Below are positions 13,125-48,670 of a stretch of 51,089 nt of DNA, piece by piece. Position numbers and translations under genes: made by a program. The DNA is from Rhodobacteraceae bacterium HLUCCA12 (lineage in GTDB: Bacteria > Pseudomonadota > Alphaproteobacteria > Rhodobacterales > Rhodobacteraceae). Below the pieces are notes generated by a model that worked only from the letters and a program-made list of their open reading frames with translations, did not search any database and was not told the DNA's origin. How positions within the stretch are numbered: position 1 is the first letter of the stretch; each line of letters begins with the position of its first letter. Location of the stretch: the NCBI GenBank assembly GCA_001314715.1, contig LJSV01000018.1, positions 1 to 51,089 on the forward strand. The letters are read 5' to 3'.

Positions 13125-13148
13125 CGCGGGTTGATTTGCCGGCCCGCG
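13125..13148 (+). terminator. Possible terminator hairpin after the aminotransferase gene
   Basis: CGCGGG and CCCGCG pair around a 12-base loop, followed by TCTTTC. It begins seven bases after the stop. The tail is only moderately T-rich. Confidence 0.45.
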
Positions 13149-13184
13149 TCTTTCATATCGGCGCCTGATCAAGGGAAAACGGAC

Positions 13185-13895
13185 ATGTCCAAACCACTTG
13201 CCGATGCTGCCCTTCGCCCGGTTTCGGCGCGGGTCACCGTGGCCGACAGCGTCTATCGCAACCTGCGCCAGGCACTGGTTCTGGGCCGCTTCGATCCGGG
13301 GCAGGTTCTGACCATCGGCGCACTGGCCGACAGCTTCCAGACCAGCCACATGCCCGTGCGCGAGGCGTTGCGCCGGCTGGGCGCCGAAGGCGCGGTCGAG
13401 ATCCGCGCCAACGGCTCGGCCCATGTCCCGGATGTCACGCCCGAGGCGCTGGATGACATCACCCGCGCGCGCCTGGCGCTGGAGGGGCTGGCCACCGCAC
13501 TGGCGGTCGAACGCATGAGCGAGGAAGAGGTGCGCGCGCTGGACGACCTGGAAGCGCGCCACAGCGCCACGGCCCAGCAGCGCGACGTCTACGAGATGCT
13601 GGAACGCAATCACGACTTCCATTTCGCGATCTACGCCGGCGCGCAATCGCCGGTTCTGCTGAACCTGATCGAATCGCTGTGGCTGCGCTATGGGCCGTTC
13701 ATGCGCCTGCTGTCGCAAAGCATCGCGCCGCGAATCGAAGGCAGCACGCACGAACCGTTCCTGCAGGGTCACCGCGAGATCGTCGATGCGATCCGTGCCC
13801 GCAACACCACCCGCGCCCGCACCGCCATAGAACGCGATATCGAGGGCACACGCGCGCTGCTGGCAGGGCTCTGCGCTGGCCGAAAGACCGCCTGA
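13185..13895 (+). CDS. GntR-family regulator, FCD (FadR-type) subfamily
   Basis: 236 residues from ATG 13185, 37 bases after the hairpin. The winged helix-turn-helix (about 20-82) shows SVYRNLRQALVLGRFDPGQVL and SFQTSHMPVREALRRLGAEG, the GntR signature. The C-terminal FCD domain (about 90-225) has ARLALEGLATALA, the metal-ligand positions in NHDFHFAIYAG, and a final GHREIVDAI. FCD regulators bind small carboxylic acids and usually repress. It ends 15 bases from the end of the convergent catabolic operon, so it is a candidate regulator of that operon, competing with the UTRA regulator at 25.4-26.2 kb. Confidence 0.9.
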   Translation: MSKPLADAALRPVSARVTVADSVYRNLRQALVLGRFDPGQVLTIGALADSFQTSHMPVREALRRLGAEGAVEIRANGSAHVPDVTPEALDDITRARLALEGLATALAVERMSEEEVRALDDLEARHSATAQQRDVYEMLERNHDFHFAIYAGAQSPVLLNLIESLWLRYGPFMRLLSQSIAPRIEGSTHEPFLQGHREIVDAIRARNTTRARTAIERDIEGTRALLAGLCAGRKTA

Positions 13896-13910: not shown

Positions 13911-14657
13911 TCAGTAATGGCTGAGCAGTGAACCGTATCCCTGGATCTTGTCGTTGATCCCGTTCTGGCGTAGCGCCCACCAGTAGGTGGCGGTGTTGAT
14001 CGCGATCACCGGCTTGTCCAGCCAGAACTCCGCGATCCCGGCAAGCCGCGCCATCGCCAGGTTGGTGCCCACCTGAACGATTGCCTCGACTGAGGGATCG
14101 TTCAACTCGATGATGGCGTCGCGCAGGGTCTGTTCGGATTCATGCGCAATCAGCATCGGGCTTGGGCATTTCAGCCCCTTGATCGCCGCCACCTCGAAGC
14201 CGCAATCGGTGAAGAACCGGTTCACCTGCGCATCGCCCACCGGCATATAGGGCGTGATCACCGCGATCCGCTTGATGTCACCGAACTGGCGCAAAGCAGC
14301 CTGACAGGCATCCGAGCCCATCGCCACCTTGACACCGGCGCGCGCCTCGACCCGCTTTTCCAGCTCGACCGAGCCTTCCAGCCCGTCCCAGAAGGTTTCC
14401 GCCGACATCCCCATAACCAGATAATCCGGGCTGCATGTCATGACGCTATCGACCGAGTCCATCAGGCTTGCGCGTATGTCATCCATGAGCTTGTTGAAAT
14501 CGTCGTCGCTGTGGACCGGGTTATCGGGGATCAGGATGCGCGAGAAATGGTTGGTGACGCCGACCGGGCGCATCGAGTCGAACTCGGGCTGGACCGAGGT
14601 GTTGGTCGAAGGGGCGATCACCCCGAATTTCATCCTGTAGCCAAGAGAATCGGTCAT
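13911..14657 (-). CDS. Asp/Glu-racemase-fold protein (maleate isomerase/AMDase family) lacking both catalytic cysteines
   Basis: 248 residues with the opening FGVIAPSTNTSVQPEF, typical of the maleate isomerase/arylmalonate decarboxylase group. The two active-site positions, normally Cys in an ACT and a CT context, read VMGMSAETF (Met84) and VQVGTNLAMA (Gly197). The paralogue at 17383 in the same operon has Cys82 and Cys196 there. The protein is otherwise intact, with the conserved ITPYMPVGDAQVNRFF and the C-terminal NTATYWWALR. It overlaps the isochorismatase-type gene by one base and is the last gene of the operon. It may use a different chemistry, or be a ligand-binding subunit. Confidence 0.85.
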   Translation of the reverse strand: MTDSLGYRMKFGVIAPSTNTSVQPEFDSMRPVGVTNHFSRILIPDNPVHSDDDFNKLMDDIRASLMDSVDSVMTCSPDYLVMGMSAETFWDGLEGSVELEKRVEARAGVKVAMGSDACQAALRQFGDIKRIAVITPYMPVGDAQVNRFFTDCGFEVAAIKGLKCPSPMLIAHESEQTLRDAIIELNDPSVEAIVQVGTNLAMARLAGIAEFWLDKPVIAINTATYWWALRQNGINDKIQGYGSLLSHY

Positions 14658-15295
14658 TATTGCCTCCGTGGTTGGACAAGCCGGCCGGATGCGGCCAGGA
14701 AGTCGTCGCGCGTCATCAGGTCAGCGTATTTCTGGCCCATGTCGAAAAGATTGGCCTCATGCGGCCCCATCGCGCGGTCGCCCACGCAATCGGTAATGAC
14801 GATCGGGCGCAGATTGTTGCTGACCGCATCCACCACGGTTGCGCGCACGCAGCCGGATGTGGTGCAGCCGGTAACCACCAGCGTGTCGATTGCGCGCCAG
14901 GTCAACCAGCCCATCAACCGGGTTTCGAAAAAACCGGAAGCCTGGCGCTTGCGCACGACCAGTTCATCCTGCCGTGGGGTGAGTGGCGGCAGGATCTGGC
15001 TGATCGGCGCAGTCTCGGTCAGTGTCAGCAGCTTTGGGCATTTGCGGGCAAATGCCCCGGCATCCGACCCGTCATCGGCATAGACGACACGGGTATGCGC
15101 CACCGGCCAGCCGCGTTCACGAAAGGCCGACAAGAGCGGCACGGTTGCGTCGGCCGCGTCCGGGATGTTGCCGCCCCCGAGATGGGCCGGATCGACGAAC
15201 CCTTCGACGAAATCGACAAGGATCAGTGCCGGACGTTCGCCAAGGCCAACGGCCCCGGCAAACCCCTGGCGCTGATAGATGTCGCGTTCGCTCAT
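14657..15295 (-). CDS. Isochorismatase-family amidohydrolase (N-carbamoylsarcosine amidase / maleamate amidase type)
   Basis: 212 residues. The cysteine-hydrolase triad is visible: Asp28 in LILVDFVEGF, Lys116 in ELVVRKRQASGFF and Cys149 in GCTTSGCVRAT. The cis-peptide VTGCTTSG and the final GPHEANLFDM fit N-carbamoylsarcosine amidases and the nicotinate-pathway maleamate amidase NicF. It would hydrolyse a linear amide or carbamoyl group in the cytoplasm. It overlaps the FAD monooxygenase gene upstream by four bases and the racemase-fold gene downstream by one base, so it belongs in the middle of the operon. The exact substrate is inferred from neighbours only. Confidence 0.88.
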   Translation of the reverse strand: MSERDIYQRQGFAGAVGLGERPALILVDFVEGFVDPAHLGGGNIPDAADATVPLLSAFRERGWPVAHTRVVYADDGSDAGAFARKCPKLLTLTETAPISQILPPLTPRQDELVVRKRQASGFFETRLMGWLTWRAIDTLVVTGCTTSGCVRATVVDAVSNNLRPIVITDCVGDRAMGPHEANLFDMGQKYADLMTRDDFLAASGRLVQPRRQ

Positions 15296-16488
15296 TCCAC
15301 ACCTTCCAGATCGCGCAGCGACTGAATCAGCGACGAGCGCATCACATAAGCCTTGTGCTGGGCCGGGTCGGCCACGGTCGCGCGCAACTCGTCGTGATAG
15401 GCGCGCCGCGCGTCGGGGCTGCGCTCATTCAGGATGGACCGGTTGCGAAGCGCCTGGGCCTGGACGGTTTCCACCGCGACCTTGCGGCGCTGGCGCTCAT
15501 AGCGGCCCATCAGCGACAAGGGCGCGCCATGCCAGACCTGCGTCAGTTTTTCGGCCAGGTTCATGGCGTCGTGGATGCCGCCGTTCATGCCCATGCCCCC
15601 CAGCGGGTTGTTCAGATGCGCGGCATCGCCGGCCAGAAAGACGCGGCCGACCACGTAGTTCTCGGCGACCTTTTCATGGACGCGGTAATCGACGCTGTGC
15701 ACCACGTCATAGGGATCGGCCTTTGGAAACACCGCCTGAAGCCGCTCTTCGACGCGGGCGGGGGCTTTCATCTGCTCGGGGGTTTCGCTGGGGTCGGTGG
15801 GCAGCAGCACCCGCCACAGCGAGGGCGTGCGCAGCAGCACCACCCATTCGTCCGGATCACTGATATAGGCGATGTTCGCCAGATCGTCGATCGCCTCGTG
15901 AAACGGGAAGGTCGTCGACATCGACAGAAAGATCTCGGGGATCGTCATGCCCTCGAAAGTCACGCCCAGCGCCTTGCGGATGTTGCTGCGCGCCCCGTCG
16001 GCGCTGACCATGTAGCGCCCCCGCATCGGCTCGCGCGTTCCGTCCTCGCGTTCCACGATCAGGGTCACGCCATCGTCGTCTTGCGTTACATCCACCGCCC
16101 GCGCGCCAAAGACCACATCGGCATTGGGATGCGCCCTGAGCCAGTCGCGCAGAAGAAGCGACAGTTTCCACTGTTCGCATTGAAGCCGGTAGGGATGGTT
16201 GGTTTCGTCTTTCAGAAGCGACAGGTCAAAGGTGGCGATCACCCCCTCGCGCCGGTCGCGGAACTGCCATTGCGGGCAGATCAGGCCCTGTTCGACGCAT
16301 TTCTGCCCGATCCCGAACCGGTCCAGCATGTCCAGCGTCGGCGGATGAAAGGTCGAGGCGCGCAGATCGGTCGGCACGTCCCGATGGGCATCGATGATGG
16401 TGACCGGGATGCCCTCGTCGGCCAGATAGGCGGCAGCGGTCATGCCCACAGGCCCCGCCCCCACGATCAGAACACGCGCCTCGCTCAT
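15292..16488 (-). CDS. FAD-dependent aromatic-ring monooxygenase (PheA/TfdB class)
   Basis: 398 residues. The three FAD motifs of class A flavin monooxygenases are present: GAGPVG (10-15, ADP binding), YMVSADGARSNIRKALG (DG motif, FAD/NADPH) and RVFLAGDAAHLNNPLGGMGMN (GD motif). Such enzymes hydroxylate phenolic or pyridine rings with NAD(P)H and oxygen. Its length fits the NicC (6-hydroxynicotinate) and MHPCO (pyridine ring-opening) enzymes better than the longer phenol hydroxylases. It overlaps the amidase gene by four bases and follows the SDR gene by 61 bases. Partnership with amidase and maleate-isomerase-fold genes is the reason to suspect an N-heterocyclic substrate. Confidence 0.9.
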   Translation of the reverse strand: MSEARVLIVGAGPVGMTAAAYLADEGIPVTIIDAHRDVPTDLRASTFHPPTLDMLDRFGIGQKCVEQGLICPQWQFRDRREGVIATFDLSLLKDETNHPYRLQCEQWKLSLLLRDWLRAHPNADVVFGARAVDVTQDDDGVTLIVEREDGTREPMRGRYMVSADGARSNIRKALGVTFEGMTIPEIFLSMSTTFPFHEAIDDLANIAYISDPDEWVVLLRTPSLWRVLLPTDPSETPEQMKAPARVEERLQAVFPKADPYDVVHSVDYRVHEKVAENYVVGRVFLAGDAAHLNNPLGGMGMNGGIHDAMNLAEKLTQVWHGAPLSLMGRYERQRRKVAVETVQAQALRNRSILNERSPDARRAYHDELRATVADPAQHKAYVMRSSLIQSLRDLEGVE

Positions 16489-16549
16489 ACCGTCTGCTCT
16501 CCTTTGTCACGTCCAATACAATCGCCGGCGCGCAGGTGTCCGGCACCGG

Positions 16550-17386
16550 TCACATGATCGCCGGCTTGTCGACCGACGGGCTTTGCGCCTTTCCGGCGGC
16601 CTCATCAGGCGGCAGGCTGTCATCCCACAGCCGCGCAATATAGCGCGCGCCGCTGCGCCCGTTCGACTCGTCGGCGCAAAGCCAGCCGATGGCACGGCGC
16701 ATTACCGCCGCGGGCAGCAGGCCGCCATCGGCGCCACGCTTGTTCGCGCTGTCGGGCAAGAGCGCGGTATCGGCCGCACCGCCGGGCAGATAGACCATCA
16801 CGTCAACCCCGGTTCCTTCCAGATCCTGCGCCCAGACCCGCGATGCGGCTTCCAGACCCGCCTTTGACGGACCATAGGGCGCATAGCCGCGCCGCACCAT
16901 GGTCTGGTCGCTGGTCGAGATGTTGATGATCTTGCCGAAACCGCGCGCGATCATTCCCGGCGTCACCGCGGCGGCCATGTTGAACGCGCCGTTCAAGTTG
17001 ATGTCGATGATCTCGCGCCAGATGGCCGGGTCGGTTTCCCAGAATTTCGTGGGTACGGTGTTGAAGGTCTCGGACACCAGCCGCATGCCGCGCCCGGCAT
17101 TGTTGACCAGCACATCCACCGCCCCGAACGCGGCTTCGGCCTCGGCGACGACACGTGCGCAATCGGCCGGATCACGGACATCGGCCTGAACGGCAATCGC
17201 CCGTCCATCGCCCGAGAGGGCCGCGGCCTCGGTCACGGTATCCGCCAGCTCGCCACCGGCGCGCGCCCCGGTGACGACCAAACGCGCGCCGGATGCTGCA
17301 AGCTCCAGCGCCATTTCGCGGCCAAGCCCGCGGCCGCCGCCGGTGATGACCACCACCCTGTCGCGCAACGAGGGAAATTGGCTCAT
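16550..17386 (-). CDS. Short-chain dehydrogenase/reductase
   Basis: 278 residues from ATG 17386, which overlaps the stop of the preceding racemase-fold gene by four bases. Classical SDR motifs are present: TGGGRGLG (cofactor), NNAG (95-98), Ser157 or nearby in NISTSD, and Tyr171 and Lys175 in APYGPSKAGLE. The C-terminal 50 residues (ADESNGRSGARYIARLWDDSLPP) are longer than in typical 250-residue members. It would oxidise an alcohol or reduce a ketone with NAD(P). Within the operon it sits between the cysteine-containing racemase-fold gene and the monooxygenase gene. Substrate unknown. Confidence 0.88.
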   Translation of the reverse strand: MSQFPSLRDRVVVITGGGRGLGREMALELAASGARLVVTGARAGGELADTVTEAAALSGDGRAIAVQADVRDPADCARVVAEAEAAFGAVDVLVNNAGRGMRLVSETFNTVPTKFWETDPAIWREIIDINLNGAFNMAAAVTPGMIARGFGKIINISTSDQTMVRRGYAPYGPSKAGLEAASRVWAQDLEGTGVDVMVYLPGGAADTALLPDSANKRGADGGLLPAAVMRRAIGWLCADESNGRSGARYIARLWDDSLPPDEAAGKAQSPSVDKPAIM

Positions 17387-18141
17387 GCCGTCACCGCCTT
17401 GTTTGCCTTGAATAGTCTTCCGCCACCGGGCACCGCATCGCCGATACCCGCGCGGCGCAGCGCCTGCCAAAGGGTCGCCGTGTTCGACGTGACCGCTGGC
17501 AAGCCGGTTTCACGCTCAAGCGCAGCGATCAGGGGCAGCGACGGAAAGTCGGTGCAGGTGATCAGAAGCGCCTGTTCATCCCCACCGAGAACAGCCATCG
17601 CATGCTCGCGCACGCGCTCCAGCGGCGTTTCGGCAATACGCGGAAATTCCTGCGGCCCGTTTGCGCCGATGCCCAGGCCCGCGATGGCGGTGACCGCGAT
17701 GCCGTGCGCCTCAAGGAACGCGGTCTCGTGATCGTTGAGCGCCTGGTGATAGGGCGTCGCCACAGCCACGCGGCGCACATCCAGCGCCGCAAGGGCCGCC
17801 ACGATCGCCGCGGCGGTGGTCACGCAGTCGACCCCGCTGCGCGCGGTCATCTGTTCGGGGATACTGTCGGCGGGGGTGGCAATAGAGCCGGCGGTGCAGG
17901 CATAGGCAACGACATCGACCCGCGCCGGGGTCAACAGCCCGATCGCCCCATCCAGATCATCCCAGAGGCCCGCACGGCCTTCGGGCGACGTGGTGTCCGA
18001 ATGTAGCCTCATCCGGGTGGTGTGAAAGCTCACGCCCTCGGGCATCATGCGCGACCATTCGCTTTCGTTCACGGTATTCGTGGGCGGCACGATCAGGCCC
18101 AGCCGCGCGCGGTAGCCATAGCTGGACAGATGGCGGGTCAT
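17383..18141 (-). CDS. Asp/Glu-racemase-fold enzyme (maleate cis-trans isomerase family), both cysteines present
   Basis: 252 residues from ATG 18141. LGLIVPPTNTVNESEW is the N-terminal signature of the maleate isomerase/EutA/arylmalonate decarboxylase group. Cys82 in VVAYACTAGS and Cys196 in LLITCTDFPSL are the expected catalytic pair, and the C-terminal TSNTATLWQALRRAG is conserved. NicE-type members isomerise maleate to fumarate, and other members racemise or decarboxylate. It follows the CoA-transferase gene by 61 bases and overlaps the SDR gene by four. It is the cysteine-complete counterpart of the cysteine-less copy at the end of the same operon. Confidence 0.88.
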   Translation of the reverse strand: MTRHLSSYGYRARLGLIVPPTNTVNESEWSRMMPEGVSFHTTRMRLHSDTTSPEGRAGLWDDLDGAIGLLTPARVDVVAYACTAGSIATPADSIPEQMTARSGVDCVTTAAAIVAALAALDVRRVAVATPYHQALNDHETAFLEAHGIAVTAIAGLGIGANGPQEFPRIAETPLERVREHAMAVLGGDEQALLITCTDFPSLPLIAALERETGLPAVTSNTATLWQALRRAGIGDAVPGGGRLFKANKAVTA

Positions 18142-18202
18142 GGTTCGGCCCCCGGTACCGGGACCGCGCTGGCCGTCGCGGTCAGGTTCGGTCGCGTTGC
18201 GT

Positions 18203-19465
18203 TCATGCCGCCCGCCCCCCGACCTTGCCGATGATGCCCGCCTCTTGCAAGTTCGACAATCTGTCGCTCGACAGGCCCAGCAAACCGGAAAAGACCTCGT
18301 CGTTGTGTTCGCCCAATTCGGGGCCGGGGCGATTGATTCGGCCCGGCGTGGCCGAAAGCTTGGGCGCGACGTTTTGCATGTGCATGGCGCCAAAGGTCGG
18401 GTGCATGACCTTGACGATGGCCTCGCGCGCCTTGAAATGCGCGTCCTTCAACATCTCGGGGGCGCGGTAGATGTCGCCGAAGGGAACACCGCCCGCTTCC
18501 AGCACTTCGCAAAGGGCATCGGCCGTCATCGTCCGGGTCCATTCGGCAATCAGATCGTCCAGTTCCTGCTGGTGCGCCCCGCGTGCGGAATGGGTGGCAT
18601 AGCGGTCGTCGCTGGCCAGTTCGGACCGACCCATACAGGTGGCCAGCCGGGCAAAAACCGTGTCCTGGTTGGCCGCGATCAGCACGAACCGATCATCCGC
18701 CGTGGGATAGACATTCGACGGCGCCACATTCGGCAGGATGGCGCCCGTCCGTTCGCGGATGTAATCGGCCTGATCGTATTCGGTAATCAGCGATTCCATG
18801 ACATTGAGCACGGCTTCGTAAATCGCGCTGTCCACAACCTGCCCGCGCCCGGTGCGATTGACGACATGCAGTGCCATCATCGCGCCCAGACAGGCAAAGG
18901 TCGCCGCCAGCGTGTCACCGATGGAAATGCCCATCCGACTGGGTGGTGTCGACGGGTCGCCCACGACATAGCGCAGCCCGCCCATGGCCTCGCCGATGGC
19001 GCCGTAGCCGGCACGCTTGGCATAGGGGCCGGTCTGGCCGTAGCCGGAGACCCGCACCATGATCAGCCGGGGGTTGATTTGCGACAATTCCTCGTAACTC
19101 AGACCCCAGCGTTCCATCGTACCAGGGCGAAAGTTCTCGACCAGGATGTCGGCCTTGGCAACCAGCGCACGGATGATGTCGGCCCCGTCCTGTTCGCGCG
19201 CATTGACCTCGATCGACTTCTTGTTGCGCGCGACCACGGGCCACCACAGCGACTTGCCATGCGCCTTCTCGCGCCCCCACTGGCGCATCGGGTCGCCCAG
19301 GCCGGGTTGTTCGACCTTGATCACCTCGGCCCCGAAATCGGCCATCAGTTGCCCGCAGAACGGCCCGGCCAGAAGTTGACCCATCTCGATCACCCGCAAC
19401 CCGGTCAGCGGGCCGTTTTCAGCCCCTTCGATGGCCAAGGCGGTGTCAGCGGAAGGGTTGTTCAT
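18203..19465 (-). CDS. CaiB/BaiF (type III) CoA-transferase
   Basis: 420 residues from ATG 19465. The opening PLTGLRVIEMGQLLAGPFCG and FGAEVIKVEQPGLGDPMRQW, then LVENFRPGTMERWGLSYEEL, are diagnostic of the family. The catalytic Asp184 lies in MGISIGDTLAATF. It moves CoA between acids, forming a glutamyl/aspartyl-anhydride intermediate; likely donors such as succinyl-CoA are family knowledge. It is the first gene of the minus-strand catabolic operon and starts 97 bases from the divergent HMG-CoA-lyase-type gene. That pairing suggests activation of a 3-hydroxyacid to its CoA ester, which the lyase then splits. Confidence 0.93.
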   Translation of the reverse strand: MNNPSADTALAIEGAENGPLTGLRVIEMGQLLAGPFCGQLMADFGAEVIKVEQPGLGDPMRQWGREKAHGKSLWWPVVARNKKSIEVNAREQDGADIIRALVAKADILVENFRPGTMERWGLSYEELSQINPRLIMVRVSGYGQTGPYAKRAGYGAIGEAMGGLRYVVGDPSTPPSRMGISIGDTLAATFACLGAMMALHVVNRTGRGQVVDSAIYEAVLNVMESLITEYDQADYIRERTGAILPNVAPSNVYPTADDRFVLIAANQDTVFARLATCMGRSELASDDRYATHSARGAHQQELDDLIAEWTRTMTADALCEVLEAGGVPFGDIYRAPEMLKDAHFKAREAIVKVMHPTFGAMHMQNVAPKLSATPGRINRPGPELGEHNDEVFSGLLGLSSDRLSNLQEAGIIGKVGGRAA

Positions 19466-19476
19466 AGGATTTCCCA

Positions 19477-19492
19477 ACTTGTCCAGACAACT
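19477..19492. promoter_or_regulatory. 16-bp near-palindromic operator, site 1
   Basis: ACTTGTCCAGACAACT lies between the CoA-transferase and HMG-CoA-lyase-type genes, 12 bases before the former's ATG. It matches the reverse complement of site 2 (22190-22205) at 14 of 16 positions and resembles the HutC/DasR-type GntR operator ACTGGTCTAGACCACT. Confidence 0.7.
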
Positions 19493-19562
19493 TTTTCTGA
19501 TAAAACCGCAACAGCCTGCACAATGCAAGTGGCGAAAACCCGTTGGCGCGAGAAAGGACACC

Positions 19563-20468
19563 ATGACCCTGCCCGATATCGAAATCGTCGAAGTCGCGCC
19601 CAGGGATGGGTTGCAGAACGAAAAGGCGCTGGTCTCGACGGCAGACAAGGCCGAACTGGTCAACCGCGCACTCGCCGCCGGACTTCGCCGGCTTGAGGTG
19701 ACGAGCTTCGTCAATCCCAAGCGGGTGCCGCAGATGGCCGATGCCGAGGCATTGATGGCAACGCTGTCACGCCCCCAAGGCGCCGGGTTCATCGGCCTTG
19801 CCTTGAACCAGCGCGGGTTCGAGCGCGCGCGCGACGCCGGTTGCAACGAGGTCAATTTCGTCGTCGTCGCGTCGGAAACCTTCAACCAGCGCAACCAGGG
19901 CGTGCCAATTGCCGACACGCTCGCAAGCTGGGCCAGTATCCGCGAACAGGCCAGCGCGGCGGGGCTGCGCACATCGGTGACCATCGGTGCGAGCTTTGGC
20001 TGTCCGTTCGAGGGCGAGATGCCCGCAAACAAGGTTCTGCGCATCGCCGAGGCGGTTTTGGAACACGCGCCGGACGAGCTGGCCTTTGCCGACACCATTG
20101 GTTGCGGCGTCCCGACACAGGTGAAAGCCCTGCTCAGGGGCGCGCGGGCGCTGGCGCCTGATCTGAGGCTGCGCTGCCATTTCCACGACACCCGCGCCAC
20201 CGGTATCGCCAATGTCGCCGCTGCGGTCGAGAACGGGGTTCAGGCCATCGACGCCAGCATCGGCGGAATCGGTGGTTGCCCCTTTGCCCCGGCGGCCACC
20301 GGCAATGTCGCCACCGAGGATGTGGTCTATATGCTGGAGCGCATGGGCCTGCACACGGGCGTCGATCTTGACGCGGTGATCGAAGCCGCGCGCTGGATCG
20401 CCGGCCCGCTGGGCAAGCCGGTGCCGTCGGCCCTGAGCCGGGCGGGCGGCTTTCCGCCGCCAGCCTAG
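19563..20468 (+). CDS. HMG-CoA-lyase-family carbon-carbon lyase
   Basis: 301 residues, the usual size, from ATG 19563 with AAAGGA upstream. The DRE-TIM metal/substrate residues are Arg14-Asp15 in VAPRDGLQNE and His206 and His208 in CHFHDTRATG. The signature cysteine is Cys239 in GIGGCPFAPAATGNVATED, with Asn248. It cleaves a 3-hydroxyacyl-CoA such as HMG-CoA or citramalyl-CoA, releasing acetyl-CoA. The divergent type III CoA-transferase gene makes a two-step activate-and-cleave module likely. It meets the TPP-enzyme gene tail to tail with a four-base overlap. A role in leucine breakdown is less likely, since no other leucine genes are present. Confidence 0.92.
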   Translation: MTLPDIEIVEVAPRDGLQNEKALVSTADKAELVNRALAAGLRRLEVTSFVNPKRVPQMADAEALMATLSRPQGAGFIGLALNQRGFERARDAGCNEVNFVVVASETFNQRNQGVPIADTLASWASIREQASAAGLRTSVTIGASFGCPFEGEMPANKVLRIAEAVLEHAPDELAFADTIGCGVPTQVKALLRGARALAPDLRLRCHFHDTRATGIANVAAAVENGVQAIDASIGGIGGCPFAPAATGNVATEDVVYMLERMGLHTGVDLDAVIEAARWIAGPLGKPVPSALSRAGGFPPPA

Positions 20469-22171
20469 TAGTCGCACAAGACGTTGATCAGCGCCTGTTG
20501 CCCCTTGGCGACGGCCTCAAGCCCCTGCGTCAACGCCGCGTCGAGCTCGGCCACGGTCGCGGCCCGCAGGCCAAGTCCGCGATGCGCCTCGATGATCCTT
20601 TCGTAATCCGGCTGCGGGCGCAGATCGGCCAGCAGGCGGCCACCCCCGGCCGCCGCCGCGCCCTGCCCGTGCATTGCCAGGGTCGAGTTCCGCACAGCCC
20701 CCCAGCAGCCGTTGTTGAACACCACCGTCAACACCGGCAGACTATTTGCCTCGGCCACGAAATGGCAGGCGGTGGGGTTGTTGAACATGTATGCGCCATC
20801 GCCCAGAACGGATATCACGGTTCGGTCGGGCATCGCCTTCTTGACGCCAAGCGCCGCGCCCAGCCCCCAGCCAAGCCCGCCAACGGGGCTGAGCCCGAAA
20901 TAGCTGCGGGCCGCCGGGGGCGGGCATTGTTCCGGGCGCAGCGGGTATTCGTTGGTGATGATCGCATCGCGCGGCAGCGCCCGGTGCAAGGCGGCGCTGG
21001 CGCTGGCCGGGGTCAGGGCCTCGACCGCGCCGTCGGCGGCCCAGCGCTGTCGGTCGCGCGCACGCTGCGATGCAAGGCGATCGCGGCGCGATGCGACCAC
21101 GGCGGCGGCACCGCCCTGTGGCGCGCCCAGCTCCGCGTCCAGTGCCTGAAGCGCAAGCTTGCTGTCGGCAGACAGGGTCAGTTGCGCGGGGTAGCTGCGC
21201 ATCGGATACCCTGCGGCCAGCGGGTCCGCGCCGATCTGCACCAGCGACTGCGCCGCCTGGGGCGTGCTGATGGCGGGCATCCACGGCACCTCGCAATCCA
21301 GTGCGATGATGAGATCGGCCTCGGCATACTGGCCATCGGGGCTGAACCCCAGGTGCATCGGATGATCGCCGGGCAAAAAGGCGCGCCGCGCACTGTTGCC
21401 CACGACCGGAAGCGCCCAGCGCTGCGCCAAATCGGCCAGGATCGGCACGGCGTCCGGGTCGGCGCCGAAATGCGAGGTCACGATGACCGGATGACTGGCA
21501 TTGCGAATCAGCTCTGCCAGCCGGGTCACGGCGGCGGGGTCGGCGCCGGGGCGGGATACCGTGCCCAATGGCGGCAGCTCGGCCGGAACCGGCGCCTGCA
21601 TCCCCAGAACCTCACGCGGAAGCGACAGGTAGACCGGGCCGGCCGGGCTGGCATGCGCCACTTCCATAGCCCGGCGCACGGCATCGTCGGCCTGTTCGGG
21701 AAAACGCAGCTCGTAGTCCCATTTCACGGCCTCGCGCAGCATCCCCGCCTGATCGAACAGTTCCTGCGCCCAATGCGGGTGCCGGGTTCGGGTGCCGTGA
21801 CGGCCTTGTTCCGTCACCGGGGTGCGCCCGGCGCTCAGCAGCATCGGCACATAGTCGCGGCCGGCGTTCAGCGCACCGCAAACGATATTCGCCGTGCCGA
21901 CGCTGACGTGAACCATCACCGCCTGCGCACGCCCGGTCACCATGGCGTGACCATGCGCCATCGACGCGGCCAGGTTCTCATGCGGAACGGTGACCGGCTC
22001 AGGCATGTCGGCCGCACCGGCCCCGGACGCGGCAAACGCCTCGACGATGGAGGGAAAATCAGTTCCCGACACCCCGTAGAACGCATCGACGCCGTAATGC
22101 TTGAGCGCGCGCAGATAATTCGTCGCGGCGAGGGCGGTTTCCCCGTCGGTCGGGCCTGTTGAACCGGACAT
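20465..22171 (-). CDS. Thiamine-diphosphate-dependent enzyme (acetolactate synthase / benzoylformate decarboxylase superfamily)
   Basis: 568 residues from ATG 22171 (AGGAAA upstream). The N-terminal domain has the catalytic Glu65 in VPHENLAASMAHG. The central domain is the family's Rossmann-like region, and the C-terminal domain has the cofactor motif GDGAYMFNNPTACHF starting at 457 and ending VVFNN. It would decarboxylate a 2-oxoacid or join it to an aldehyde or acyl acceptor. It differs from short phosphonopyruvate decarboxylases by its full three-domain length. It is divergent from the TAXI transporter gene across operator site 2, which implies that the imported acid, or a product of it, is its substrate. 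Confidence 0.88.
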   Translation of the reverse strand: MSGSTGPTDGETALAATNYLRALKHYGVDAFYGVSGTDFPSIVEAFAASGAGAADMPEPVTVPHENLAASMAHGHAMVTGRAQAVMVHVSVGTANIVCGALNAGRDYVPMLLSAGRTPVTEQGRHGTRTRHPHWAQELFDQAGMLREAVKWDYELRFPEQADDAVRRAMEVAHASPAGPVYLSLPREVLGMQAPVPAELPPLGTVSRPGADPAAVTRLAELIRNASHPVIVTSHFGADPDAVPILADLAQRWALPVVGNSARRAFLPGDHPMHLGFSPDGQYAEADLIIALDCEVPWMPAISTPQAAQSLVQIGADPLAAGYPMRSYPAQLTLSADSKLALQALDAELGAPQGGAAAVVASRRDRLASQRARDRQRWAADGAVEALTPASASAALHRALPRDAIITNEYPLRPEQCPPPAARSYFGLSPVGGLGWGLGAALGVKKAMPDRTVISVLGDGAYMFNNPTACHFVAEANSLPVLTVVFNNGCWGAVRNSTLAMHGQGAAAAGGGRLLADLRPQPDYERIIEAHRGLGLRAATVAELDAALTQGLEAVAKGQQALINVLCDY

Positions 22172-22189
22172 TTTTATATTTCCTGCTAG

Positions 22190-22205
22190 AGTTGTCCGTA
22201 CAAGT
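22190..22205. promoter_or_regulatory. 16-bp near-palindromic operator, site 2
   Basis: The minus strand reads ACTTGTACGGACAACT, matching site 1 (19477-19492) at 14 of 16 positions. It lies 19 bases before the ATG of the TPP-enzyme gene and 139 bases before the TAXI transporter gene. Confidence 0.7.
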
Positions 22206-22343
22206 ATGCTTTTATCGGCGGATGACGCAAGACTTGCGTCGAATAAGGTGAATGTCGTGCGGTGCGCCGATGCCGCAGCCGGAGCCGGGCAACCACCCTC
22301 CCGTCTGTGCATCCTGGGCCGACCCGACCAACAGGAGGACGAT

Positions 22344-23294
22344 ATGAACATCAGAACCATCGCCTTGAGCGCGACACTGCTGGGAACCGTCGGCGTGGGT
22401 CTGCCCGCGGCGGCGCAAACCGTTGGTCTGGCGACCACGCAGGGCGGCGCCACCGAACAGATCGCCAATGCCATCGCCATGGTCGTGACCGAAGAGACCG
22501 AGCTTCAGATCCGCCCGCAGATGTCGGCGAACACCGCGCAATATGTCCCGATGGTGAACGCCGGCCGGGTCGAGTTCGGCATCGCCAACTATCCGCAGAC
22601 CTTTTATGCGATCAACGGCACCGGCATGTCCGAGGGGCAGGCGAATCCTGACCTGCGCATCGTTGCCACGCTGTTTCCGTTCACGGCCGGGCTGGTCGTG
22701 ACCGAGGAATCGGGCATGACGGGCTATGACGACCTCGAAGGCGCGCGGGTGCCGCGCTACCCGGACAATTCGCTGGGCGACTATATCATCCGTGCCGGTC
22801 TGGCCGCTGGCGGGCTGACCTATGACGACGTCGAGACCGTGCCGATCGCCAACTTCCCGCGTCAATATGATGCCATGCGTCAGCGCCAGATCGACGTGTC
22901 GATCGCCACCGCCGGGGCACAGCCGACCTATGACCTCGAAGCCAGCCTGGATGGCATCCGCTTCCTGTCGTTCGAGGAGGATGCCGACGACACAATCGCC
23001 GAATACCTGCCCGGCACCTATACCCGGACCCTGCCCGAGGGGTTCCATTCGCTGCCCGGCCTGTCGGCGGAAAGCCGTCTGTTCGCCTATGACTACATGC
23101 TTTTCGCCCATCGCGATGTCAGCGACGAGATCGTCGCCGAAGTGATCGGCGCACTGGATAGCGGGGCGGAGGCTTTGCGCGACACCTCGCCGCTGTGGCA
23201 GGAATTCGACCCCGACGACATGGCCAAGACCACCGAAATGCCCATGCACGAAGGGGCTGAGGCCGTCTATCGCGATATGGGCCTGATCGACTGA
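22344..23294 (+). CDS. TAXI-family TRAP transporter substrate-binding protein
   Basis: 316 residues from ATG 22344, with a strong AGGAGG upstream. Residues 1-24 are a signal peptide (hydrophobic core ending GLPAAAQ), so the mature protein is periplasmic. VGLATTQGGATEQIANAIA and the later VEFGIANYPQ fit TAXI (TRAP-associated extracytoplasmic immunogenic) proteins. It delivers a solute, commonly a dicarboxylate or related acid, to the permease encoded next. A 13-bp stem-loop separates the two genes. The upstream 172-base gap holds operator site 2, so expression is probably inducible. Confidence 0.9.
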   Translation: MNIRTIALSATLLGTVGVGLPAAAQTVGLATTQGGATEQIANAIAMVVTEETELQIRPQMSANTAQYVPMVNAGRVEFGIANYPQTFYAINGTGMSEGQANPDLRIVATLFPFTAGLVVTEESGMTGYDDLEGARVPRYPDNSLGDYIIRAGLAAGGLTYDDVETVPIANFPRQYDAMRQRQIDVSIATAGAQPTYDLEASLDGIRFLSFEEDADDTIAEYLPGTYTRTLPEGFHSLPGLSAESRLFAYDYMLFAHRDVSDEIVAEVIGALDSGAEALRDTSPLWQEFDPDDMAKTTEMPMHEGAEAVYRDMGLID

Positions 23295-23390: not shown

Positions 23391-25385
23391 ATGGTGCAGG
23401 TGCCCAGTGATTCGTCCCAGAACCCGCCCGAACCGCCGCTGACCCCGTTCCAGACCATCGCCCGGACCGCAATGATGATCGTGGCCGTCGCTGTGCCACT
23501 GGTCACCATCATTTGGGTCACGAACGTTCCGGGGCGCCTGGGTTTTCTGCTTTATCCCGAACAGGTGGCGGCGCTGATGCTGGGGATGGCGGCGGCCGTG
23601 GTCTTCCTGGGCGAGATTCCGGGATGCGATCGCGCATGGAAAATGGTCCGCGATACCCTGTTCGCGGTGGCGGCACTGGGGTTCGGGGTGCATCTGTTCC
23701 TGCGGTTTCCGATCTTGTCCGAACAAGCGTTCTTCCATCCGACCGAGGCGTTGATCGTCGGGGTCCTTTCAGTCCTCATCGTGCTTGAGGGGGTCCGGCG
23801 CCGGATCGGGCTGGCGCTGATCGTTGTTTTTCTGGTTTTCTTTGTCTATGCCATCTTCGGCGATGTGATCCCCGGCGCACTGTCCGCCAGAACGCAGAAC
23901 CCGCTGGATCTGTTCCGGTATCTGGGTACCGATTCGGGTGCAATGCTGGGTCCGGCGCTGGCAATTGCGTGTTTCATCGTGGTGACATTCGTGCTGATGG
24001 GCCAATTGTTGCTGTCCACCGGCGGGACCGAGGTGTTCACGGGCCTCGCCGTGCGGCTGGCCGGTCAGGGGCACGGGAACTCGGCCAAGGTCGCGGTGTT
24101 GGCGTCGGGCTTCATGGGCTCGATCTCGGGCAGCGCGGTGTCGAACGTGGTCTCGACGGGCGTCGTCACCATTCCGATGATGCGGCGCGCAGGGTTCAAT
24201 GCCCGATCCGCCGGCGCGATCGAGGCCGCAGCCTCGACCGGGGGGCAACTGATGCCCCCGGTCATGGGGGCCGCGGCCTTCCTGATGGCCGAGAACCTGC
24301 GCCTGCCCTATAACGACATCATCGCGGCGGCATTGCTGCCGGCGATCCTGTTCTATTTCGCGGTTTATCTGCAGATCGATTTCACCGCGCGCAAATATCG
24401 CCTCAAGGCGCTCAGCGATATCGACGGACGCACGCTGAAACAGGTACTGCGCCATATCTGGATCATCGCCGTGCCATTCTCGATCCTGCTTTACGGGCTG
24501 TTCCAGCTCAATCAGCCCGCCGAACTGGCCGCGCTCTACGGTGCCGGGGCGTTGGTCGTGCTGGTCGTGTTCTTTGGCGGCGTCGGCGGACGGCTGAACC
24601 TGCGCCAGTGGGTCGAGATATTGTCGCGCACCGGCCGTATCGTCGGCGAGGTGATCCTGATCACCGCGATTGCCGGCATGATCATCGGCTTGCTGGCCAC
24701 CACCGGCCTGGGATTTGCCCTGTCGATGGCGCTGCTGGACTTCGGCCGGTCGAGCCTGTTCATGTTGCTGGTCGTCACGGCGCTGATCTGCATCATCCTG
24801 GGGATGGGCCTGCCGACAACAGGCGTTTACCTGTTGCTGGCATCGCTGGCTGCACCGTCGATCGTGGAACTGGGCGTCGGCGGGATCGAAGCGCATCTGT
24901 TCGTTCTCTATTTCGGGATGCTGTCGATGATCACGCCGCCCGTGGGTCTGGCCGCCTTTGCCGCCGCCTCGGTGGCGGGCGGGCCGGCCATTGGCACGGC
25001 GTTGACGGCGCTGCGCTATGGCTGGATCGCCTATTGCCTGCCGTTCCTGTTCGTCTATCAGCCCGGACTGCTGATGCAGACCACCTGGGCCGACACGGCA
25101 TTGGTGCTGGTGGCGACCACGGTGGCGGTGCCGCTGATCACCGCCGCGATCCTGGGGCATGGCTTGCGCCCGCTCGGTCCGCTGGGCCGGCTGCTGGCTG
25201 TTGTCTTCGGGGGCCTGGCGCTGCTGCCATCCAGCGCCTTTGCCGGCGCCAAGCAGGTGGAACTGGTAGCCCTGGCAGCGGCAATTGCCTTGATGGTGCT
25301 TCACATCCGTTCCGCCTGGCGAAATCCCGAAACACTGGAAACGGTTTCGGCCCGCGATGTATCGGGCAAGGCCAGCACCGGCTGA
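23391..25385 (+). CDS. TRAP transporter fused permease (DctQM-type, TAXI system)
   Basis: 664 residues from ATG 23391. The first 150 residues hold about four membrane segments, the small-permease part, and the rest carries 12 or so more, the DctM part. Diagnostic DctM pieces are GFMGSISGSAVSNVVSTGVVT followed by IPMMRRAGF, then GGQLMPPVMGAAAFLMAE and GMGLPTTGVYLLLASL. It works with the preceding binding protein as a sodium- or proton-driven importer in the inner membrane. It ends three bases before the convergent UTRA regulator gene. The short hydrophilic N-terminus (QVPSDSSQNPPEPP) is normal for the fused form. Confidence 0.93.
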   Translation: MVQVPSDSSQNPPEPPLTPFQTIARTAMMIVAVAVPLVTIIWVTNVPGRLGFLLYPEQVAALMLGMAAAVVFLGEIPGCDRAWKMVRDTLFAVAALGFGVHLFLRFPILSEQAFFHPTEALIVGVLSVLIVLEGVRRRIGLALIVVFLVFFVYAIFGDVIPGALSARTQNPLDLFRYLGTDSGAMLGPALAIACFIVVTFVLMGQLLLSTGGTEVFTGLAVRLAGQGHGNSAKVAVLASGFMGSISGSAVSNVVSTGVVTIPMMRRAGFNARSAGAIEAAASTGGQLMPPVMGAAAFLMAENLRLPYNDIIAAALLPAILFYFAVYLQIDFTARKYRLKALSDIDGRTLKQVLRHIWIIAVPFSILLYGLFQLNQPAELAALYGAGALVVLVVFFGGVGGRLNLRQWVEILSRTGRIVGEVILITAIAGMIIGLLATTGLGFALSMALLDFGRSSLFMLLVVTALICIILGMGLPTTGVYLLLASLAAPSIVELGVGGIEAHLFVLYFGMLSMITPPVGLAAFAAASVAGGPAIGTALTALRYGWIAYCLPFLFVYQPGLLMQTTWADTALVLVATTVAVPLITAAILGHGLRPLGPLGRLLAVVFGGLALLPSSAFAGAKQVELVALAAAIALMVLHIRSAWRNPETLETVSARDVSGKASTG

Positions 25386-25388: not shown

Positions 25389-26186
25389 TCAACCTTGCGA
25401 AGCGCGTTCGCCGCTGAAATCTTCTCGTTGCAGGCGAATGGTATAGGTGAACCGATCGGCAGGGTGGTGATTGACCGACGCCACCATCACCTCTCCCGAC
25501 CCGGCGTGGTAGCGCCGCACCAGCCGCAATGCCACCGGCCAGCCGGGATTGCCGAACGCCTGGCGCACGGCGGCCGGCATCTCGACCGCGTTGAAGGTTT
25601 GCGTGGCCTCGGCGATCGGTTCATTGCCGCGTGTTTCCACCAGTGCGTAGAACGGCCCCTCATAGGCAAGCAACTCGTCGCGCAGCCAGGCGAAGCGTTT
25701 GTTGATATAGGCCGATGTGTGGCAGATGATGCTGCCATCCTCGGCGGTGCGCCGCACGCCCGAGATACACAACCATTCGCTGCCTTCAGGCGCCGCGACC
25801 AGCCCCGCGGTATCCGGCCCCAGCCGCACGGGCACCGCGCGCTCGATCTCGAAATGGGTATCGAGGGCGTATTGAAACAGCTCTGACAGCGAGAACATGG
25901 ATTGCGTGTAGACCGGCGTGGGATTGTCGGACACCACGCGCGTGCGCGATCCGCGCCGGCGTTCGACGAAGCCCAGCTCCGACAATTTGCGCAAAGCCTC
26001 GCGCACGGTCTGGCGGCTGACGCCGAACTCGTCGCAGAGCTCGGCCTCGGAGGGGGCGCGCGTGTCGACGGCGTATAGGCCCGACTGGATGCGCCCGCGC
26101 AGGATATCGAGAATGCGCAGATACTGGGGTTGCGCGCGTTCTGACGTGAACCCGTTCTTGTCGCTGCTCTCGTCGCGCATCACCAC
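25389..26186 (-). CDS. GntR-family regulator, UTRA (HutC) subfamily
   Basis: 265 residues from GTG 26186 (AAGGGG five bases upstream); GTG 26183 or ATG 26180 are alternatives. The winged helix at about 20-85 has PSEAELCDEFGVSRQTVREALRKL and a wing ending VERRRGSRTRV. The UTRA effector domain follows (EWLCISGVRR, ICHTSAYINKRF, FNAVEMPAAVRQAFG). Such regulators usually repress and release DNA on binding a small effector. The two 16-bp operators in this window have the HutC/DasR shape. Its convergent position against the TRAP permease gene makes it the best candidate for binding them. Confidence 0.92.
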   Translation of the reverse strand: MVMRDESSDKNGFTSERAQPQYLRILDILRGRIQSGLYAVDTRAPSEAELCDEFGVSRQTVREALRKLSELGFVERRRGSRTRVVSDNPTPVYTQSMFSLSELFQYALDTHFEIERAVPVRLGPDTAGLVAAPEGSEWLCISGVRRTAEDGSIICHTSAYINKRFAWLRDELLAYEGPFYALVETRGNEPIAEATQTFNAVEMPAAVRQAFGNPGWPVALRLVRRYHAGSGEVMVASVNHHPADRFTYTIRLQREDFSGERASQG

Positions 26187-26501
26187 GAATGCCCCTTTCC
26201 CAGATCTTTCTGCGCATTCACCGGATTGCCGTCTGAGTCAACCCCGGTTCGTTCCAAGCTTCCGTTTCGCCCCGCAATACCATGCGATGCGGCCGCGTGG
26301 CGCGATCTCCGCAGGCATGGTCGGCGGCGGGTTCGTGCGATCCTAACACATATGCACACGAACGACGATTGCCGATGCCCCGCGCGGTCACCTTGGCTGG
26401 CGTTGCGTGGCGCAAAAGCTGACTGCGGCGACAAACGCGCCAAAGCCAATTTCGGGCGCGCTCAGGCGTCGCACGGCGGCGGATGCGCCGGACGTTACGG
26501 A
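26187..26501. other. Non-coding gap with a spaced inverted repeat
   Basis: No convincing gene lies here between the UTRA regulator and the lyase. GTTCGTG (26331-26337) and CACGAAC (26357-26363) form a 7-bp inverted repeat separated by 19 bases. This could be an operator for the UTRA regulator's own gene. Otherwise nothing stands out. Confidence 0.35.
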
Positions 26502-27365
26502 TCAGTCGCGCGCCCAGCGGCGTTCGAATTCCCAGATCTCGGGAAAGCCGATCAATTCGTTGAACTCGTTGAAATCGAACATCTCCTGCGCCGGCGTCTG
26601 CGATGTGCCGTGTTCCTTGAAGGCCATCAGCGCATTCTGGGCGGCCTGCGCGGCGGCCAGCGCCGTCGTTGCGGGATAGATCGCCATGGCATAGCCCATG
26701 TCCTTGAGCTCAGAGGCCGGGCGCACGGGCGTCTTGCCGCCATTGGCCATGTTGGCCATCATCGGTGCGCGAATGCGGCGGCATGCCTCTTGCATTTCCT
26801 GCTCGCTTTCCAGCGCCTCGATGAACACCACATCGGCGCCGGCCTCGGCAAAGGCCAACCCGCGCTTCAGCGCCCCCTCGAACCCTTCGACCTGCCGGGC
26901 GTCGGTGCGCGCGATGATCAGCGTTTCGGGGCTGCGGCGGGCCTCAAGCGCGACCTTGATCTTGTCGACCATATCGGCCAGCGGGACGACCTTCTTGCCC
27001 GGCGTATGGCCACATTTCTTGGGAAATTCCTGATCCTCGATCTGGATGCCGACGACGCCGGCCGCCTCATATCCACGCACGGTGTGGTGCACGTTCAAGA
27101 GCCCGCCATAGCCGGTATCGGCATCGGCGATGATCGACGCATTGCTGACCCGGCACAGGGTCGAGACGCGTTCCAGCATCTGGGTATAGGTGGCGATCCC
27201 GGCATCGGGGATGCCATGCGCCGACGCCGTCAGCCAATAGCCCGAGGCATAGGCGAAATCCAGTCCGACCTTATTGCCGATCACCGCCGAAATCATGTCG
27301 TGCAGGCCCGGCGCGGCGACGAACTGGCCCGCGTCCAGCGCGGCACGAAGACTGGGTTTCGTCAT
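26502..27365 (-). CDS. PEP mutase/isocitrate lyase family lyase (methylisocitrate/dimethylmalate lyase or oxaloacetate decarboxylase type)
   Basis: 287 residues. The active-site signature K-K-C-G-H is intact (116-120), with metal-site Asp81 and Asp83 in IIADADTGYG and IEDQEFP just before. FAYASGYWLTASAHGIPDAG is the N-terminal family pattern. Enzymes of this size split 2-methylisocitrate or 2,3-dimethylmalate, or decarboxylate oxaloacetate. A phosphonate mutase is unlikely because the KKCGH cysteine favours the lyase branch. It overlaps the second isochorismatase-type gene by four bases, so the two act together. That gene pair, amide hydrolase then carbon-carbon lyase, is unusual. Confidence 0.9.
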   Translation of the reverse strand: MTKPSLRAALDAGQFVAAPGLHDMISAVIGNKVGLDFAYASGYWLTASAHGIPDAGIATYTQMLERVSTLCRVSNASIIADADTGYGGLLNVHHTVRGYEAAGVVGIQIEDQEFPKKCGHTPGKKVVPLADMVDKIKVALEARRSPETLIIARTDARQVEGFEGALKRGLAFAEAGADVVFIEALESEQEMQEACRRIRAPMMANMANGGKTPVRPASELKDMGYAMAIYPATTALAAAQAAQNALMAFKEHGTSQTPAQEMFDFNEFNELIGFPEIWEFERRWARD

Positions 27366-27991
27366 CTTTCAAGTCCCTTCAGATAGGCAAGCGTTTCGTC
27401 CTCTGACACCACGTCGCCGTATTTCGCGTTCATGTCGAACAGGTTGGCCTCGTGCGGGGCAGGATGGCGATCGCCCACCGCCTCGCGCGGGATGATCGGG
27501 ATAAATCCGTGGCTGTTGGCATCGACGCACGAGGCGCGCACGCAGCCGGATGTGGAGACCCCGGTCAGGATCGTCGTATCCACGCCCCAGGTTGTCAGTG
27601 TCGAGGCCAGCGATGTGCCGAAGAACACGCTTGCATATTGTTTCGATATGACCAGTTCATCCTCGGCAGGGTCGATCCCCGGTGCCCAGTCGCCCCACTT
27701 GCTGCCACGGATGAAATGGCGCAGCGGCGTCGCCTTCTGGAAAAAGCGACCACCGTCCAGCGCCTTGGGGTGATAGACGACATTGGTATAGATGACCGGC
27801 ACCCCGGCCGCGCGCGCCGCGTCGCGCAACCGGAGGGCCGAGGCCAGCGCAGCGTCGCAATCGGCCCACAGATCGCAGTCGGGGTCGAAATAGGCGCGCA
27901 CAAGATCGATCAGGATCAGCGCCGGCTTGCGGCCAAAGCCCAGGCGCCCGTCATAGGCGCGGGCGTAGTTTTCATTCAGGTCATCGCTCAT
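27362..27991 (-). CDS. Isochorismatase-family hydrolase, second copy
   Basis: 209 residues. The triad is Asp29 in LILIDLVRAYFD, Lys117 in LVISKQYASVFFG and Cys150 in GVSTSGCVRASCVDA. It is a relative of the copy at 14657, sharing the same subgroup features (SGCVRA, then DRHPAPHEANLFDMNAKYGDV), but is clearly diverged, so the two probably have different substrates. Here the cysteine-hydrolase cis-peptide context is GVSTSG rather than GCTTSG. It overlaps the downstream lyase gene by four bases and forms a two-gene operon with it. Hydrolysis of an N-carbamoyl or amide group before lyase cleavage is a reasonable inference. Confidence 0.87.
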   Translation of the reverse strand: MSDDLNENYARAYDGRLGFGRKPALILIDLVRAYFDPDCDLWADCDAALASALRLRDAARAAGVPVIYTNVVYHPKALDGGRFFQKATPLRHFIRGSKWGDWAPGIDPAEDELVISKQYASVFFGTSLASTLTTWGVDTTILTGVSTSGCVRASCVDANSHGFIPIIPREAVGDRHPAPHEANLFDMNAKYGDVVSEDETLAYLKGLER

Positions 27992-48669: not shown

Positions 48670-48670
48670 G

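Follow-up and report, generated by a model that had tools for sequence, protein, structure and literature searches.

The 51,089-nucleotide stretch of contig LJSV01000018.1 from Rhodobacteraceae bacterium HLUCCA12 analysed here, called the window below, holds a real and conserved catabolic gene set for which the comparison with nicotinate degradation holds only in part. At its centre lies a minus-strand operon that combines an FAD monooxygenase (FMO), an amidase (ICH) and two proteins of the maleate isomerase fold, one with both catalytic cysteines (MI_A) and one with neither (MI_B). We see an even chance that this set forms a regulon for the catabolism of a small N-heterocycle whose ring is opened by C-N hydrolysis and not by a NicX-type dioxygenase. 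The cluster is no chance mix, because FMO and MI_B co-occur in related genomes and because the cluster shares an operator-like motif.

The co-occurrence is pronounced. Among 295 genomes of the family, MI_B, counted as strong at E 7e-50 or better (any match at 1e-10: 71 genomes), is found in 19 and FMO also in 19; both are present in 16, where about 1 would be expected by chance (p = 9e-21), and in 15 when the window's own genome is set aside (p = 1e-19). The distance between the two genes in all 16 shared genomes is 7 to 2931 bases. CaiB, the first gene of the operon, occurs in 18 of the 295 genomes, nine of which also have MI_B (p = 8e-8; 8 of 17, p = 6e-7, without the window's genome), with CaiB on a different contig in four of the nine. 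The genes concerned are the following.

18203..19465, minus strand: CaiB, family III CoA-transferase, operon gene 1 (Pfam CoA_transf_3, E 1e-125)
17383..18141 (start refined), minus strand: MI_A, maleate-isomerase-fold enzyme with both catalytic cysteines (PDB 2xec)
16550..17386, minus strand: SDR, short-chain dehydrogenase (Pfam adh_short)
15292..16488, minus strand: FMO, FAD monooxygenase, PnpA/HspB-like (PDB 6ain, 7da9; Foldseek)
14657..15295, minus strand: ICH, putative NicF-type (maleamate amidohydrolase-like) amidase (identity to L177-L179; PDB 3ot4)
13911..14657, minus strand: MI_B, maleate-isomerase-fold protein with neither catalytic cysteine (AlphaFold2 model, TM to 2xed)
19563..20468, plus strand: HMGL, HMG-CoA-lyase family, divergent from the operon (NCBIfam PRK05692)
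20465..22171, minus strand: TPP, thiamine pyrophosphate-dependent enzyme, convergent to HMGL (NCBIfam PRK08327)
22344..23294, plus strand: TAXI-family TRAP solute receptor (TIGR02122, 140 bits, cut-off 84)
23391..25385, plus strand: TRAP fused permease (TIGR02123, 506 bits, cut-off 321)
25389..26180, minus strand: GntR2, HutC-like GntR regulator (NCBIfam HutC, 69 bits, below the cut-off of 220)
26502..27365, minus strand: PEPM, methylisocitrate/dimethylmalate-lyase-type enzyme (prpB, 274 bits, below the cut-off of 354)
27362..27991, minus strand: ICH2, second isochorismatase-family amidase, N-carbamoylsarcosine-amidohydrolase-like (PDB 26st, E 2.5e-46)
13131..13895, plus strand: GntR1, GntR-type regulator adjoining the operon end (NCBIfam PRK11414, 103 bits, below the cut-off of 225)

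Read in its own direction (19465 to 13911), the operon runs CaiB, MI_A, SDR, FMO, ICH, MI_B. An earlier note on this DNA had described these six genes together with a divergent HMGL, TPP and TAXI, and every gene it named is present where it had placed it; the short overlaps it reported at most junctions are found at three of the five (4, 4 and 1 bases), with 61-base gaps at CaiB/MI_A and SDR/FMO. Its general view, that of a probable mixed-module pathway for an N-heterocycle or amide distinct from the nicotinate pathway, is borne out, and the scattering of the genes in relatives that it had named as the finding to speak against it was not seen: L052 and L053 (L-numbers label individual related loci) share the order of the window, with an aldehyde dehydrogenase (ALDH) inserted between CaiB and MI_A. 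GntR2, PEPM and ICH2 (25389-27991), which the note did not cover, belong to families that recur with FMO and MI_B in relatives.

These relatives are numerous, and by the record titles of the MI_B scan the gene set occurs in rhizobia, roseobacters and other Proteobacteria. We tallied the best 80 of at least 585 MI_B relatives from named genomes, a nonrandom choice made by MI_B similarity, with identity thresholds set after the related loci had been inspected; the counts are lower bounds because 33 of the 80 stretches do not reach 17 kb. FMO was found in 44 loci, ICH or ICH2 in 34, SDR and MI_A in 32 each, an allantoinase/imidase-type (PuuE-like) ring hydrolase and PEPM in 27 each, the TAXI permease in 24, a lactonase-like protein (MBL) in 23, ALDH in 16, an HpaB-like monooxygenase in seven, LeuCD in four, CaiB in three, and HMGL and TPP in two each. 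The PuuE-like hydrolase, ALDH and the lactonase-like protein are the additions seen in fuller clusters, whose layout is LivKFGMH / FMO-MI_B-PuuE-GntR-ALDH-SDR-MBL / GntR2 / MI_A-PEPM-ICH2-SDR2, as in L096 (Pseudooceanicola batsensis) and L065. Small versions also exist: PuuE-ICH-MI_B-FMO-PEPM-MI_A in L117, and MI_B-GntR-CaiB-HMGL-NIPSNAP-ICH on a Tistrella plasmid. At least one of PEPM, CaiB and HMGL is present in 25 of 31 long FMO loci, and PEPM and CaiB stand together in none of the 80. As a separate observation, the HpaB-like monooxygenase lies near MI_B and never with FMO (L098, L101, L103, L105, L106, L107 and L127, with a shorter piece in L097), and some of these loci are near genes that by eye resemble F420 synthesis.

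The distinction between one cysteine-complete and one cysteine-less isomerase-fold enzyme, already drawn in the earlier note, extends to their relatives. MI_A, which matches maleate isomerase structures (PDB 2xec, a putative maleate isomerase, E 8e-30) and is about 30% identical to NicE-type proteins, has Cys at both catalytic positions, as do all 32 MI_A-type sequences, whereas none of 97 distinct MI_B-type sequences carries this pair. In the latter, the second catalytic position is Gly in 96 and the first is Met in 90, Ile in four and Val in two; the remaining sequence, a shorter open reading frame of L068, has a gap at the catalytic position. The AlphaFold2 model of MI_B (mean pLDDT 91.5) nevertheless superposes on maleate isomerase 2xed with a TM of 0.87. 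Since the predicted fold is kept and the catalytic cysteines are lost, MI_B, judged by its sequence and model, cannot use covalent-cysteine chemistry. In a midpoint-rooted tree of 54 sequences (every fourth MI_B, every third MI_A), the MI_B-type proteins group in one clade (support 0.84) together with L019, L020 and IgiC, with MI_A outside; L021-L023, also outside, are likewise Cys-less. Two assignments were tried and rejected: MI_B as an arylmalonate decarboxylase (44 bits against a cut-off of 225, with Gly in 96 of 97 sequences at the C188 position named in the title of 3ixl), and ectoine EutA (TIGR02990, cut-off 318), for which MI_A reaches 130 bits and MI_B 56. The Cys-less family member IgiC is encoded in the indigoidine operon of a Leisingera caerulea plasmid (L133:10001-10750); that operon serves an N-heterocyclic pigment and is biosynthetic (PMC5014874).

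How far does the likeness to nicotinate degradation go? The lower nicotinate/nicotine pathway comprises NicC or HspB, NicX/Hpo, NicD/Nfo, NicF/Ami and NicE/Iso (PMC5500553) and has in common with the cluster a NicF-type amidase, a Cys-pair isomerase-type enzyme and an FAD monooxygenase. Of the resemblance to NicC, NicF and NicE claimed earlier, the amidase and the isomerase stand. ICH is 51, 56 and 59% identical to isochorismatase-family proteins from Variovorax, Azospirillum and Caballeronia loci (L177-L179), all encoded beside an annotated 2,5-dihydroxypyridine dioxygenase; it shares the TSGCVRA motif with NicF-type enzymes, matches PDB 3ot4 at E 2e-71 and, by its sequence, would classify as a NicF-type maleamate amidohydrolase. 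The monooxygenase does not fit: FMO is 22-25% identical to NicC-type proteins over part of the length only, and its nearest PDB relatives by sequence and fold are p-nitrophenol monooxygenase PnpA and 6-hydroxy-3-succinoylpyridine monooxygenase HspB (6ain, E 5e-61; 7da9, E 3e-52; Foldseek TM 0.91 and 0.89). The reported lack of NicX and NicD also held: a search of the whole genome (3.7 Mb, 52 contigs, 99.9% complete) for NicX was negative at 1e-5, with a query that is positive in 36 of the 295 family genomes, and so, at the same threshold, was one for NicD that covered the window of this genome. The cluster further departs from the nicotinate pathway in its extra Cys-less isomerase-fold protein, CoA-transferase, HMGL, TPP and PEPM.

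Could the cluster still be an ordinary lower nic or nicotine pathway, leading from 2,5-dihydroxypyridine to fumarate with unrelated replacements for NicX and NicD and with FMO as an HspB-type enzyme making 2,5-dihydroxypyridine? The PnpA/HspB kinship of FMO, the NicF-like ICH and the NicE-like MI_A would all suit it, and one locus (L041:16336-17358) does have a NicX homologue (36%) near its FMO/MI_B/CaiB/HMGL cluster. We hold this to be unlikely. NicX is undetected in the present genome and in 15 of the 19 MI_B genomes (it is found in four, and in three of the 16 with both MI_B and FMO); the L041 homologue is the sole one at 1e-20 among the 100 fetched loci (L032-L131), some of whose neighbouring genes are unlabelled and could include another dioxygenase; and a fumarate end product would leave CaiB, HMGL, PEPM and MI_B without a role. 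NicD, at 1e-15, appears in no fetched locus except L177-L179. Vitamin B6 degradation, with its SDR, lactonase and FMO, was rejected: with L034's lactonase-like protein, 4-pyridoxolactonase gives 46 bits and AidB 91, and among the 57 PDB relatives of SDR at 1e-18, none of them specific, no pyridoxal dehydrogenase is named. Homarine catabolism, an early guess, was dropped with nothing fitting among the literature matches listed.

CaiB falls short of the NCBIfam models for succinate-glutarate CoA-transferase (294 bits, cut-off 750) and succinyl-CoA:mesaconate CoA-transferase (NF041294, 246 bits, cut-off 700); HMGL belongs to the HMG-CoA lyase family (PRK05692, 324 bits, cut-off 246); and the TPP enzyme reaches 598 bits with PRK08327 (cut-off 456), with no PDB match at 1e-30. 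The PDB relatives of PEPM are 4iqd, 1zlp, 3eoo and 3fa3, in that order a carboxyphosphonate phosphorylmutase, petal death protein, a methylisocitrate lyase and a dimethylmalate lyase. An analogy is offered by mesaconate/citramalate utilisation, with mesaconase, succinyl-CoA:citramalate CoA-transferase and citramalyl-CoA lyase (PMC4682846): CoA transfer and subsequent lysis of a hydroxy-dicarboxylate would suit CaiB and HMGL, but the present cluster has amide chemistry upstream.

The second line of evidence is regulatory. The divergent CaiB/HMGL and TPP/TAXI promoters have ACTTGTNCNGACAACT in common, and three operator-like palindromes were located.

19477..19492, between CaiB and HMGL: predicted operator-like palindrome ACTTGTCCAGACAACT, the best shared intergenic 16-mer
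22190..22205, between TPP and TAXI: predicted operator-like palindrome, ACTTGTACGGACAACT on the minus strand, the shared 16-mer
23715..23726, inside the TRAP permease gene: operator-like palindrome TTGTCCGAACAA, from the 12-mer core search, which may be chance

Both 16-mer sites are conserved in L052 and L053. In the whole genome the 16-mer has three places at up to one mismatch, all of them exact (a control pattern has one): the two of the window and one on contig C49, in a locus that by eye looks exopolysaccharide-like. The stronger motif evidence is the enrichment of the core palindrome TTGTCCGGACAA across loci. In the 101 sequences formed by the window and L032-L131, it has 60 unique sites at up to one mismatch (identical sites merged), 17 of them exact, and ranks first among 60 composition-matched palindromes (next 24, median 3), the pattern having been picked after viewing the window, L061 and L064. 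Thirty-six of the 60 sites lie close upstream of cluster genes, most commonly MI_B (10) and FMO (9); in Tistrella, two sites precede a cupin gene and a hypothetical gene, some 1.4 kb upstream of MI_B. GntR2 is present in 22 of the 30 sequences with a core site and in 20 of the 71 without (p = 5e-5). We propose GntR2 as a candidate reader of the operator; this is only a proposal because those 20 GntR2-bearing sequences, L065 and L096 among them, have no site, and GntR1 is an alternative candidate. Overall, the cluster is probably coregulated. Motif sites on other contigs (C30, C31 and C36 for the 12-mer, C49 for the 16-mer) add no convincing pathway gene.

From these parts a route can be proposed. 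The adjacency of a NicF-type amidase and a Cys-pair isomerase suggests that a maleamate-type half-amide is converted to a maleate-type acid. This acid is probably alkylated, because PEPM, CaiB with HMGL, and LeuCD belong to families that include enzymes of alkylmalate-type acids. With no dioxygenase in evidence, the simplest source of the half-amide would be a cyclic imide or lactam opened hydrolytically, a reaction credited to PuuE-related imidases. The compound, for which a pyrrole or pyrrolinone, a hydroxypyridine and an imide are all candidates, would be taken up by the TAXI transporter and hydroxylated on the ring by FMO; oxidation by SDR would yield a lactam or cyclic imide. A ring hydrolase would then open this to the half-amide: in many relatives the PuuE-like allantoinase/imidase-type protein may be the opener, which here would be encoded elsewhere or replaced. 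ICH, by its strong homology to NicF-type amidases, would free ammonia to leave maleate or an alkylmaleate, and MI_A, by homology and its two cysteines, would isomerise this from cis to trans. MI_B might act at the same dicarboxylate stage; from its fold, its lost residues and its gene company, our best guess is a hydration or proton shift. The resulting hydroxy-dicarboxylate could be cleaved directly by the PEPM lyase, or by HMGL once CaiB has transferred CoA to it. The operon could do without a hydratase of its own, since fumarases can convert mesaconate to citramalate by hydration (PMC4682846). The series has a eukaryotic parallel in the Hxn nicotinate pathway of Aspergillus nidulans, in which an FMO, an SDR, a PuuE-related imidase and an amidase act in series, as they would in the fuller clusters of relatives (PMC9304392). 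Its product, however, is alpha-hydroxyglutarate, the available part of that paper names no maleate-isomerase-fold enzyme, CoA-transferase or lyase, and an imidase is lacking from the window. Among the literature matches listed, none describes the cluster, several of the queries having been aimed at single enzymes or compounds, and the accessible parts of PMC4996985 and PMC12290011 hold nothing on MI_B or CaiB/HMGL.

Several points weigh against a hydrolytic regulon of this kind. The proposed ring opener is missing: no cyclic imide hydrolase, and no PuuE-type hydrolase of any sort, is encoded in the window, nor a PuuE-type hydrolase in the 20-kb stretches of the two nearest relatives, and the best PuuE-like proteins of the genome are 31-34% identical and lie on other contigs. 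The ALDH of L052 and L053 is also absent from the window, with the genome's best candidate (42%) on another contig. A close MI_A orthologue occurs in only 2 of the 295 family genomes, which runs counter to a tight unit; no cut-off naming citramalate is passed by CaiB or HMGL; and the window has PEPM as well as CaiB/HMGL, counter to their being alternatives. On the regulatory side, the 16-mer has just its two matches in the window at up to two mismatches, against 0.06 in shuffles, in a test that is partly circular because the pattern was defined from the same two sites. The 12-mer core is not enriched in its own genome (six places at up to one mismatch, as for the control, three of the six falling in the window and one of these inside the permease gene); it is missing from 71 of the 101 sequences, including the well-formed clusters L065 and L096; and no site at up to two mismatches precedes PEPM/ICH2 in the window. 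The selection of the 80 loci by MI_B similarity adds to these reservations.

A hydantoin or ureide pathway, in which a PuuE-like or HyuAB/CapAB-type hydrolase yields an N-carbamoyl acid that an isochorismatase-type enzyme decarbamoylates, is in our view as improbable as the nic-type one. It accommodates ICH2, which is closest to N-carbamoylsarcosine amidohydrolase, the allantoinase-like PuuE, and the CapAB/HyuAB-type genes beside CaiB-HMGL-GntR in several relatives. However, the amidase of the operon itself is NicF-like, nothing in such a route evidently calls for a maleate-isomerase-type enzyme, and with the HpxO model for urate hydroxylase FMO reaches only 81 bits (cut-off 500). The CapAB/HyuAB-type neighbourhoods of CaiB-HMGL-GntR (L148, L152, L153 and L155, assigned by eye, with a family match in L155 only) probably represent a sister pathway that opens its ring by another enzyme; L148, L153 and L155, but not L152, also have an ICH2-type amidase, and the L148 genome has MI_B elsewhere.

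A more specific version of the hydrolytic route is decidedly doubtful: the cluster could be a widespread bacterial route for five-membered N-heterocycles with alkylmaleimides as their end form, among them monopyrrolic breakdown products of chlorophyll and haem (methyl ethyl maleimide, hematinic acid). FMO and SDR oxidation, hydrolysis of the imide and of the half-amide, and cleavage of an alkylmalate would then give pyruvate and an acid; MI_B would hydrate or isomerise alkylmaleates and would found a branch of the maleate isomerase fold that catalyses without cysteine. Hematinic acid has been reported in leaves, in which maleimides were not detected, according to the available part of PMC7318184, which refers to maleimides found earlier in leaves and in lake sediments. 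No sequence here directly indicates tetrapyrroles.

We give little credence to a pathway for nitrogen-free aromatics, with other hydrolyses assigned to the amidase-fold proteins. FMO is nearest to 4-nitrophenol monooxygenase and vinyl ether cleavage is also within the range of isochorismatase-fold proteins, but the TSGCVRA motif of ICH and its 51-59% identity to NicF-type enzymes, as well as the PuuE- and CapAB-type ring amidohydrolases of relatives, speak against it. Least probable of all is that two unrelated neighbours, the FMO/amidase operon and a separate CaiB/HMGL/TPP/TAXI set, merely adjoin: CaiB and TPP are indeed scarce in the MI_B loci at the thresholds used (3 and 2 of 80) and half of the CaiB genomes (9 of 18) lack a strong MI_B, but the operon itself begins with CaiB, the shared motif is kept in L052/L053, CaiB and MI_B co-occur beyond chance as given above, and MI_B stands together with CaiB, HMGL and an amidase in Tistrella, L037 and L041.

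Should the hydrolytic, NicX-free route prove true, it would account for nitrogen release in soil and sea from one class of ring compounds. The pairing of a canonical maleate-isomerase-type enzyme with a conserved Cys-free paralogue asks what the fold does without its nucleophile, and the combination of FMO and MI_B, with the TTGTCCGGACAA motif in part of the clusters, provides a marker by which genomes can be scored.

Elsewhere in the window, a kynureninase-family protein adjoins a class I/II aminotransferase (39962-42347), and thiolase and CoA-transferase genes (47470-50499) possibly belong to beta-ketoadipate metabolism. A DNA polymerase III alpha-type gene and the neighbouring gene of the ImpB/MucB/SamB family (34756-39575) form a pair that we take to resemble an SOS mutagenesis cassette, and mannose-phosphate guanylyltransferase-type, phosphomannomutase-type and sulfotransferase genes (5350-10497) perhaps make up a surface polysaccharide locus.

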